Assembly (NCBI RefSeq): GCF_006715305.1
Contig: NZ_VFMY01000001.1
Span: 2,170,001-2,234,000 of the forward strand
Direction: 5' to 3'
Length of the DNA: 64,000 nucleotides
DNA from: Arthrobacter sp. SLBN-100
GTDB lineage: Bacteria > Actinomycetota > Actinomycetes > Actinomycetales > Micrococcaceae
The position numbers were made by a program, and so were the translations under genes. Of the stretch, positions 1,455 to 3,192 are shown one piece after another (position 1 is the first letter of the stretch; each line of letters starts with the position of its first letter). Below the pieces are notes generated by a model. It was given only the letters and a program-made list of their open reading frames with translations. It was not told the origin of the DNA and ran no database searches.

Positions 1455-1483
1455 AGAGGGTCTCCCACGGGAGGCCCTCTTTT
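1455..1483 (+). terminator. Rho-independent terminator after tRNA-Pro
   Basis: A 12-bp stem (AGAGGGTCTCCC with GGGAGGCCCTCT, one G-T pair) with a minimal loop is followed by TTTT, ten bases after the tRNA CCA. Confidence 0.85.
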
Positions 1484-1531
1484 GCGCTGCCTGGCGGTCA
1501 CAGCGAGAGATAACTTTTTGGTAAAGGGAAA

Positions 1532-1557
1532 GGCCCCGAAGCAGTTGCTCCGGGGCC
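1532..1557 (-). terminator. Terminator hairpin of the small exported peptide gene
   Basis: GGCCCCG and CGGGGCC arms enclose a second short pairing (AGCA/TGCT). Read on the minus strand the stem is followed by TTTCCCTTT. It lies 30 bases downstream of the stop codon of the small peptide gene. Confidence 0.75.
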
Positions 1558-1586
1558 TCCCTCGCCTCCTGTGATGAGGAAGCTGG

Positions 1587-1802
1587 TTACGCAGGATCAG
1601 GCCAGTTACCGATGTATGTGACCGTGGTGTCGTTGCTCTTTTCCTTCTTAACCTTCTGGGAAGCCGGATCAGGCCAGTTCCCAATGGCTACGGAAGTCTG
1701 AGAGTTGTCAGCCAGCGAACCTGCAGACAGTACGGCCGGAGCCGCTGCGGAAAATGCCAGCGCCCCCGCCAGCACGGCGGCAGCAGCAATTTTCTTCAAC
1801 AT
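1587..1802 (-). CDS. Small Sec-exported peptide precursor with duplicated IGNWPDPA motif
   Basis: A 71-residue precursor. Residues 1-31 form a clear Sec signal peptide: two lysines, an alanine/leucine-rich hydrophobic core and an A-x-A type end. The secreted part, about 40 residues, carries IGNWPDPA twice, once in the middle (1662-1685) and once as the very C-terminus (1590-1613). The two DNA copies differ at four of eight codons, all synonymous, so the peptide rather than the DNA is conserved. TTGAGGAAC precedes the ATG as ribosome-binding site. It is divergent from an HTH-TPR regulator with 130 bp between the starts, as in peptide-pheromone systems where the precursor is exported, trimmed, re-imported and bound by the TPR domain. 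The pheromone role is inferred; the exported, repeat-bearing precursor is seen directly. Confidence 0.85.
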   Translation of the reverse strand: MLKKIAAAAVLAGALAFSAAAPAVLSAGSLADNSQTSVAIGNWPDPASQKVKKEKSNDTTVTYIGNWPDPA

Positions 1803-1862
1803 ATGAGTTCCTCAATACGAGTCGGATTCGTTACAAAGCCAGCACTGTCCTTGTTGACACCC

Positions 1863-1893
1863 ATTGTAAAATGTTTTCCACAGAGACTGTCAA
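1863..1893 (-). promoter_or_regulatory. Promoter of the small peptide gene
   Basis: On the minus strand TTGACA (1888-1893) and TACAAT (1863-1868) are separated by 19 bp, close to housekeeping sigma consensus. The predicted transcript would have a leader of about 55 nt before the ATG at 1802. The TTGACA is mirrored by a second TTGACA on the plus strand at 1854-1859, giving an inverted pair inside the divergent spacer that could serve as operator for the adjacent regulator. Confidence 0.55.
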
Positions 1894-1932
1894 GCATTCG
1901 TCAACTGACTGTCCGGAAGAGGAGGAAATCCC

Positions 1933-3192
1933 GTGGGCAACGGATTCGGGGAGAAGCTCCGGGCGGAGCGGCTCGAACGGGGACTAACACAGGCCGAACT
2001 GGGCAAAGACCTGTATTCACCCAGCTATATTTCATTGCTTGAGACCGGTCGGAGGGAACCGACGGCCGAGGTCATCGAGGAACTGGCGCGGCGCCTCGAA
2101 TTGGCGCCAAAGGCCCTGGAAGCCTGGAGCCAGCCAATTACCGTCAGTGACGCAGAGTACGTTCTGGCCGGCCTTTACGCCCGCCAGGCCTGGGATCTGC
2201 GTGACTACCCTTTGGCCGCCAGCCACGCTGCCACTGCAGCGCAAATTGCGCTGGAGGGCAAAAACACCAGCGCCTGGTGGAACATGACCTATATGCAGGC
2301 CGAGTGCCTGATGAAGCAAGGCGAACTGCTCGAATGCCAGAAGATCGTCGAGCGGCTGCTCGAGCACCCCATGGCGACAGAATCAGTGGGATTGGGTGTA
2401 CGGGCGCGGCAAATGTTGGCGGCCGTCTGCCACGGACAGGGGCAACTGGCCGTGGCGGTCCAGCATGGGCTGGAAGCTGTAGAACTTTCAGCTAAATTGC
2501 CGCGCAATTCAACCGTGCTCATTGGCGCCCACCGGATTCTCATTGGAGCACTGGCTGAAAGCGGGCGGCTCGACGAAGCCTGGAAGTACTGTATGGCCCT
2601 TTACGAACAGGTGGACGAACACGCGATGTCGCAGCTGGCCGGAGAGGTGGCCTGGGTTATTGGCAACGTCGCCTTCATGCGGCATGACTACGCCGAAGGG
2701 GTCAAGCACCACGAGCGTGCAGCCAAGCTTCTCTCCCCTGCCAACGACATCGAGCTCTGGGCGCGGTTCAACAAGGCGTCCGCAGCAGTCCGCCTGTCGT
2801 CGGGAATTGTCGAGCCCGAGACCCTGTCCTCCATCGAACGGGCAGAGCTCGCCTTCTCCATCGTCGGCGGAACCAAAAGCGACGAGCTGGAGGTCGCCTT
2901 CATCCGCGCCCGCTGGCTGTACCTGACCGGGGACATTGTTGCCGCCGTCGAAAAGCTGAGGGAAATCCACGCTGAACGCGACGCCCTCGCCAAGCACACG
3001 GCAGGCGAGGTTTCACTTCTCCTGGGCAAGTCCCTGAAAGCTGCCGGCGAAGCCGACGAAGCACTGGTCCACCTTGAGGAAGCCCAGAAGGCCTTCAGCG
3101 CGGCAGGAGCAGCGGACCGTGTCCAGCAGGCCCTGGACGCGGTGCTGGAAATCCGGCTGGCCCAGCGGCGGGCCGCGGCCGCCACGGCCTAA
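1933..3192 (+). CDS. XRE-type HTH regulator with TPR domain (RRNPP-like peptide receptor)
   Basis: A 419-residue protein starting at GTG behind AGGAGG (1920-1925, 7 nt spacing). Residues about 7-62 are a Cro/C1-type helix-turn-helix (LTQAELGKDLYSPSYISLLETG is the recognition region). The remainder, about 80-410, is all-helical with repeated TPR-like pairs (for example Y-x-x-A-x-x-H-x-x-A and E-A-L-x-H-L-E-E-A). This HTH-plus-TPR layout is that of the RRNPP regulators (PlcR, PrgX, Rgg, NprR), which bind small re-imported peptides. The adjacent divergent gene encodes an exported peptide with a repeated octapeptide, which supports that reading. It could instead be an orphan XRE-TPR regulator of the kind common in actinobacteria. 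Confidence 0.88.
   Translation: MGNGFGEKLRAERLERGLTQAELGKDLYSPSYISLLETGRREPTAEVIEELARRLELAPKALEAWSQPITVSDAEYVLAGLYARQAWDLRDYPLAASHAATAAQIALEGKNTSAWWNMTYMQAECLMKQGELLECQKIVERLLEHPMATESVGLGVRARQMLAAVCHGQGQLAVAVQHGLEAVELSAKLPRNSTVLIGAHRILIGALAESGRLDEAWKYCMALYEQVDEHAMSQLAGEVAWVIGNVAFMRHDYAEGVKHHERAAKLLSPANDIELWARFNKASAAVRLSSGIVEPETLSSIERAELAFSIVGGTKSDELEVAFIRARWLYLTGDIVAAVEKLREIHAERDALAKHTAGEVSLLLGKSLKAAGEADEALVHLEEAQKAFSAAGAADRVQQALDAVLEIRLAQRRAAAATA

Follow-up and report, generated by a model that had tools for sequence, protein, structure and literature searches.

A putative RRNPP-like peptide signalling locus with a repeated Trp-Pro octapeptide in Arthrobacter, and its relatives in Actinomycetota

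Study of a 64-kb window from Arthrobacter sp. SLBN-100 (positions 2,170,001-2,234,000 of NZ_VFMY01000001.1, assembly GCF_006715305.1; this whole stretch is called the window below) revealed two divergent genes, one for a small precursor that carries the octapeptide IGNWPDPA twice and one for an XRE HTH-TPR regulator, which very probably form an RRNPP-like peptide signalling module. RRNPP signalling is known mainly from Firmicutes. In the mechanism that we propose, the precursor would be exported via Sec and its signal peptide removed, and proteases would release IGNWPDPA from both copies at predicted cleavage sites, a mature octamer being assumed because of the repeat boundaries. The octapeptide would then re-enter through an oligopeptide permease (the genome has ten SBP_bac_5 matches that might provide import, none of them being linked to IGNWPDPA) and bind in the concave groove of the TPR domain, where its residue 1 would be read near the first-helix ends of TPRs 2 and 3 (residues 127-132 and 164-168), while recognition of its residue 8 would fall to the first helix in TPR 4 (residues 196-202). 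Binding would alter the action of the HTH on a TTGACA-N28-TGTCAA element between the two genes, so that control by the regulator would extend at least to its own signal, and the two would probably form a feedback loop.

We also judge it likely that Actinomycetota possess a widespread RRNPP-like signalling of their own, in which XRE-TPR and TPR-only receptors are paired with exported precursors, often tandem, of two chemistries, Trp-Pro (GNWPDP, GDWPH, GIWPDS, GGSWPT, DIGWPV) and Cys-Cys (GPGPxCC, IWCC, HPPTCC), and which extends to plasmids of Streptomyces and to lineages of the class with small genomes. If the octapeptide is a signal, then a genetically encoded peptide language with a co-evolving receptor is present in 150/150 sampled genomes of a major soil genus, and this language is readable from sequence, cheap to synthesise and testable.

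The locus and its conservation in the genus

The features of the locus, in window coordinates, are as follows.

1587..1802, minus strand: precursor, 71 amino acids, with two octapeptide copies (homologue in 150/150 genus genomes)
1734..1802, minus strand: signal-peptide-like N-terminus, residues 1-23 (K3K4, then a hydrophobic run to A23; by eye)
1662..1685, minus strand: octapeptide copy 1, IGNWPDPA, residues 40-47 (ORF translation)
1590..1613, minus strand: octapeptide copy 2, IGNWPDPA, residues 64-71, the exact C-terminus (ORF translation)
1854..1893, unstranded: TTGACA-N28-TGTCAA, putative operator or facing pair of -35-like boxes (alignment of 72 distinct intergenic sequences of the genus)
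1933..3192, plus strand: XRE HTH-TPR regulator, 419 amino acids, putative receptor (Pfam; AF2 model; homologue in 150/150)
1945..2124, plus strand: HTH domain, residues 5-64 (Pfam HTH_31)
2143..3105, plus strand: TPR superhelix, about residues 71-391 (AF2 model; Pfam TPR)
2311..2328, plus strand: residues 127-132, several co-varying with peptide position 1 (co-change analyses)
2422..2436, plus strand: residues 164-168, several co-varying with peptide position 1 (co-change analyses)
2515..2538, plus strand: residues 195-202, of which 196 and 202 co-vary with position 8 and 195 with position 1 (co-change analyses)

The initial annotation had described a 71-residue Sec-exported precursor divergent from an HTH-TPR regulator, with IGNWPDPA occurring internally and as the exact C-terminus. 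Both ORFs are present, 130 bp apart, the octapeptide stands at the two places claimed, and the N-terminus of the precursor, MLKKIAAAAVLAGALAFSAAAPA, is signal-peptide-like as judged by eye and by a rule of our own; similar N-termini are found among the precursor loci of the genus. Comparison of the codons (ATT GGG AAC TGG CCT GAT CCG GCT for one copy and ATC GGT AAC TGG CCT GAT CCT GCG for the other) likewise agreed with the annotation: codons 1, 2, 7 and 8, i.e. 4/8, are unlike and every difference is synonymous. Among the 640 ORFs of 30-150 amino acids in the 64-kb window the precursor alone contains an exact repeated 7-mer, and a repeated 8-mer arose by chance in 2/200,000 shuffles of its peptide. 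No Pfam or NCBIfam model matched the precursor above cut-off, nor did any PHROG at E 1e-3. For the regulator, Pfam recognizes an XRE-type HTH (HTH_31, E 9e-12; HTH_3, E 4e-11) and TPR_12 (E 8e-8), and in the AF2 model the TPR region has a pLDDT of about 90. The locus stands between an ABC transporter gene and the genes purC and purD, and the window has a tRNA-Pro gene at 1369-1445.

Homologues of the regulator (81-100% identity; partial match only in 4 genomes) and of the precursor were found in all 150 genus genomes sampled, the two genes being side by side and divergent in 150/150 (114 by fetched loci and 36 by listed coordinates). The nearest proteins and loci carry the names Arthrobacter, Pseudarthrobacter and Paenarthrobacter. 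The neighbourhood is largely kept: in 81 loci, i.e. 80 named ones and the window, the ABC transporter is present in 80 and an essentially complete purC in 77. Two precursor matches were obtained in 11/150 genomes, some of which may be split matches to one precursor, and in one genome (locus L353 of G002, at about 1482-1706, minus strand) another ORF, not linked to the locus, carries IGNWPDPM four times and has no obvious signal peptide.

Octapeptide copies change in concert

Fetching of 135 genus loci (about 119 genomes, some loci having been fetched twice) provided 115 distinct precursors, in which the octapeptide is present once in 4, twice in 65, three times in 22 and four times in 24; the L199 precursor, whose degenerate copy IGNWPDTM falls outside the pattern, was scored as single-copy. 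Thus, the two tandem units of the initial annotation hold for this species but not as a general number, which is one to four in the genus and up to eight elsewhere. In L064 and L160 (genomes G144 and G121) the precursor ends after the first octapeptide copy, and these are natural single-copy cases.

Between species the octapeptide varies at position 1 (I, V, T) and at position 8 (A, M, V), with forms that include IGNWPDPA, VGNWPDPM and TGNWPDPV. Within a precursor, 246 of the 275 pairs of copies are protein-identical, and 233 of these 246 have synonymous codon differences; the other 29 pairs account for 30 residue differences, e.g. the last copy ends in V in seven precursors. This corresponds to a pS of 0.578, a pN of 0.0069 and a pN/pS of 0.012 among copies, copies and species being non-independent. 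The linkers between copies vary in length and sequence. Such concerted repeats are the outcome that selection on a released octapeptide would give. A double-copy GNWPDP pattern searched at the DNA level occurs in 2/296 phylum genomes, both in the genus of the window, so the exact octapeptide looks local.

Peptide and putative receptor change together

Among 113 distinct genus regulators, Ile at position 1 of the peptide goes with His167 in 64/64 cases, and Val or Thr with Gln167 in 49/49. Since relatedness alone could cause this pairing, a codon tree of the flanking genes (ABC transporter, purC and purD; 77/81 taxa, overlapping the sample of 113 regulators) was made, on which changes were placed by parsimony, the precursor being labelled by its first copy, the branches treated as equal and ties resolved arbitrarily. 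Position 8 has 7 changes on this tree, and residue 196, which has 9, is altered on all 7 branches; with a hypergeometric p of 1.1e-10 this residue is at the top of 175 variable columns. Position 1 has 12 changes, and they are shared by 8 of the 9 changes of residue 195, 7/7 of residue 129, 7/7 of residue 168 and 6/6 of residue 132. Two exceptions to the residue 167 pairing were noted, one H167/T pair among the 81 loci and, in the L091 alignment, a VGNWPDP peptide with His167 in g19 (our labels beginning with g designate genera).

A different reason for co-change could be that peptide and regulator recombine together as a cassette, their differences then co-occurring without direct contact. Some exchange is indeed likely, as indicated by the patchy distribution of the peptide types on the flanking-gene tree (the 12 and 7 changes above). 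Because exchange of whole cassettes could mimic co-change, trees based on the regulator itself were added for the 81 taxa, one from the regulator outside codons 110-230 and the other from its third codon positions. Residues 167, 132, 164, 165, 195 and 225 for position 1, and 196 and 202 for position 8, were still among the strongest on the repeat trees, so that the strongest columns stay within residues 110-260, whereas the mean -log10 p is just 0.1-0.5 in residues 1-66 and 331-419 (maxima 2.5 and 2.9). On the side of exchange, the third-position tree shows weaker co-change outside the groove region, in residues 261-330 (maximum -log10 p 4.4). Altogether, most of the signal comes from TPR residues of about 110-260 and little of it from the HTH or the C-terminus, and we consider it extremely improbable that cassette swapping is what produced this signal. 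It should be added that the likelihoods given here for the favoured reading and for its alternatives overlap, cassette exchange and the self-sensing discussed below being compatible with signalling. The initial annotation had named octapeptide variation unlinked to the TPR pocket as an outcome that would speak against it; the reverse was found, positions 1 and 8 both changing together with TPR residues. If the signalling reading is correct, a ready specificity code is available in the naturally occurring changes of the octapeptide and of the groove residues.

The putative intergenic control region

Over 72 distinct genus intergenic sequences, in which the distance from start codon to start codon is 124-146 bp, the TTGACA-N28-TGTCAA block is strongly conserved, and the same element with the same 28-bp spacing is present in loci of g7, g19, g24 and g29. 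It may represent facing -35 boxes, an operator or both; a consensus scan of 1450-2000 called no sigma-70-like promoter. From this arrangement we infer that the targets of the regulator include, at the least, its own signal. A regulon search found the 23-bp intergenic core once in its own genome at up to 3 mismatches, i.e. no targets beyond the locus.

This lack of a second copy of the block would also suit a secreted effector: the octapeptide might act outside the cell, as an antimicrobial or as a metal- or surface-binding peptide, with the XRE-TPR protein as a local repressor that senses something else. The export signal and the repeats fit such an effector, and import and binding are predicted only if the octapeptide is a signal. 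However, co-change of peptide residues 1 and 8 with patches of the TPR domain is not what an effector would predict, and neither is the retention of the peptide gene (16/17) beside TPR-only relatives that have no HTH, which are described in the next section. For us an effector is therefore a very unlikely explanation. As a minor point, the conserved block at window 1862-1884 contains TTTTCCACA, which we take to resemble a DnaA box.

Relatives in other genera of the family

The signalling reading was also considered in the light of more distant relatives. At a cut-off of E 1e-10 the regulator has homologues in 116/245 genomes of the family and in 17/32 genera, own genus included. Loci L079-L150 were hand-picked from the family list to cover genera, and a peptide ORF was called when it was divergent, within about 450 bp, and had a WP ending or two WP motifs, a signal peptide not being demanded. 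The initial annotation had proposed a search of Micrococcaceae for XRE-TPR genes with small flanking ORFs; in these loci of other genera, such a WP peptide ORF accompanies 35/56 HTH-TPR and 16/17 TPR-only homologues (51/73 genes). It had also regarded homologous regulators without an adjacent small ORF as contrary evidence. In the genus 150/150 are paired, but 21/56 HTH-TPR relatives from the other-genera loci have no WP peptide ORF by the family rule: six of the eight g24 loci (L103-L107 and L135), ten extra g7 paralogues, L121, L122, L130, L142 and L143. The ten g7 paralogues (L111-L119 and L146) are all those that were fetched; in L111 the HTH and TPR matches are in different reading frames, which possibly reflects a broken gene or a sequencing error.

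The peptides of these relatives are of the xGxWPx type, often in tandem. In g7, probably Sinomonas according to the identity of a single named protein, the precursors carry AIGNWPDPM three to six times. Two g28 loci have four or five FVGNWPDAV units, g17 has six to eight units of VGDWPH (some of them being VGNWPH), and g18 has two of VGIWPNS. The TPR-only proteins are about 345 amino acids long, without HTH in the alignment (and by Pfam in the 4 that were checked), and are 34-46% identical to the HTH-bearing receptor of the window; their peptides end in KIGDWPN, IGWWPN, INNWPY and similar sequences. These proteins may be regarded as the Rap-like counterpart of the HTH-bearing receptors, both being members of a single homologous family. 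In L133 and L134 a tandem of two TPR-only genes is present, and the WP peptide of each gene is unlike that of its neighbour (KVGNWPG and DDWPH in one case, KVGNWPD and IDNWPN in the other), and these tandem pairs look like a sign of duplication of the signal followed by divergence.

The weakest calls are in g10 and g32, whose short peptide ORFs, e.g. MKTIERLAAASTAVGDWPD, have no clear signal peptide. They are what one would expect if binding to the regulator took place within the producer, with the precursor or pieces of it as ligand, and if export served for removal rather than for signalling to neighbours; co-evolution, moreover, requires contact and not import. The signal-peptide-like N-termini of the genus precursors and of order and class relatives, as well as the repeats separated by variable linkers, which fit proteolytic release, argue against intracellular self-sensing, and we hold it to be unlikely.

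Order, class, plasmids and phages

Signalling in the RRNPP manner, our preferred reading, may extend beyond the family. Profile searches gave homologues in 49/396 order genomes (22 of the 49 belonging to the window's own family) and in at least 26/394 class genomes (4 of own family), the latter number being a lower bound since four candidates were scored per genome; several of the weak order and class matches cover the HTH or the N-terminal part only. By a loose rule, a divergent signal-like ORF is present at 28/32 order and class regulator loci and at 24/95 control ORFs, the controls being other ORFs of at least 200 amino acids in the same loci, of unverified gene status, and two of the 32 loci (L346 and L347) being from the window's own family. 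A divergent signal-like ORF that ends in WP or CC, or that has a pair of WP motifs, was observed for 21/32 regulators and 3/95 controls (Fisher p 3.7e-13), in a comparison that is post hoc, the rule having been written after seeing the loci. L332 was counted on a spurious ORF, and dropping it leaves 20/32 (p 2.8e-12), while the real L332 candidate ends in LNWPKCC; of the three control matches, the two found in L240 and L328 are possibly genuine peptides. A near-identical rule matched 1/94 ORFs of the window.

The peptides found comprise VGGSWPT (two or three times), DIGWPTP/DIGWPVP and DISWPVTP/DISWPSP, the single-copy endings GPGPACCTT, GGIWCC and HPPTCC, and the hybrid LNWPKCC; signal-peptide-like N-termini occur here also. 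Beside regulator homologues from other families of the order and class (L237-L239, L334, L335, L338 and L340-L344), small exported-type peptides have Cys-Cys at their end or close to it; they may represent a signal chemistry of their own, with disulfide or metal binding as examples. The distant order and class cases are candidates by their architecture. With related pairs at these levels, confinement to Micrococcaceae does not hold.

The regulator matched 36 plasmid records, 34 of them from Streptomyces. On the Streptomyces plasmid NZ_CP108000 (L243) an XRE-TPR gene is followed by a convergent ORF for the hypothetical protein WP_328698352.1, which contains IGWPVAP three times and IGWPNAA once; in the four other plasmid loci, of five examined out of the 36, the filter retained no repeat-peptide ORF. 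That the relatives in Streptomyces have a part in controlling development or antibiotics is speculation. At E 1e-5, none of the 50,697 phage records searched matched the regulator.

Comparison with known systems

The window regulator has the C-terminal TPR domain of RRNPP receptors (by Pfam, AF2 and fold; peptide binding is predicted) and the N-terminal XRE-type HTH of the DNA-binding members, and the HTH sets it apart from the TPR receptors of Rap-Phr type, which have none. An adjacent gene encodes a short precursor, exported as judged by eye and by rule, in 150/150 genomes, and co-specificity of signal and receptor is visible at the level of evolutionary co-change only. PlcR is the best natural PDB profile match spanning HTH and TPR (residues 3-207, E 3.5e-10). 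Fold matches include RapF, RapH, PlcR and NprR; eukaryotic LGN TPRs rank higher, so the fold is generic, and a viral fold search returned mainly TPR and other repeat proteins. The pairing of signal and receptor, initially deduced from architecture and adjacency, is now supported by adjacency, concerted change of the repeats, octapeptide-TPR co-change and the PlcR match. The case for a functional analogue of RRNPP signalling is strong. TPR and XRE domains are common, and membership by common descent with the Firmicutes members, rather than by shared architecture, is a likely but conjectural reading.

PlcR-PapR of the Bacillus cereus group, an RRNPP system, resembles the window in having an XRE HTH and TPR receptor beside a small exported precursor; the window differs by its tandem copies, its Gly-x-Trp-Pro signal, its phylum, Actinomycetota, and the divergent orientation of its genes. 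Rap-Phr of Bacillus is comparable to the TPR-only relatives, i.e. a receptor without HTH and a small exported-type peptide, but these relatives are homologous to an HTH-bearing receptor and their peptides have a terminal WP motif. The nearest parallel, to judge from the accessible part of PMC7425212, is AloR-AloP of Paenibacillus polymyxa, in which several HTH-TPR receptors each have a small Sec-type precursor, identified by adjacency; the phylum is another one, and that part of the text describes no repeated mature units for AloP.

In the literature, the signals described for Actinomycetota are mainly small molecules of enzymatic origin, gamma-butyrolactones among them (PMC10075063 and PMC4748050). 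One survey (PMC10075063) deals with Firmicutes and viruses, Actinomycetota signals being typically enzyme-made small molecules; a review of quorum sensing in Actinobacteria (PMC4748050) speaks in general terms of gamma-butyrolactones and of peptides that are cyclic or modified; RRNPP is treated as a Gram-positive family with Firmicutes examples in PMC13220807; and in Micrococcus luteus, according to PMC12849477, there is no evidence for a competence peptide. A search of open full text (without bioRxiv and with few subscription papers) returned no title or abstract that describes the family, and GNWPDP was absent. As far as searched, then, what is new is the phylum, the Trp-Pro and Cys-Cys signals, the common use of tandem multi-copy precursors, and the presence of DNA-binding and Rap-like receptors in one family. 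A last likeness is that of ComR-ComS and Rgg-SHP of streptococci to g10 and g32, where short precursor ORFs without a clear signal peptide lie beside the regulators; it holds for a minority of the Actinomycetota family only, and the ComR HTH is among the PDB profile matches.
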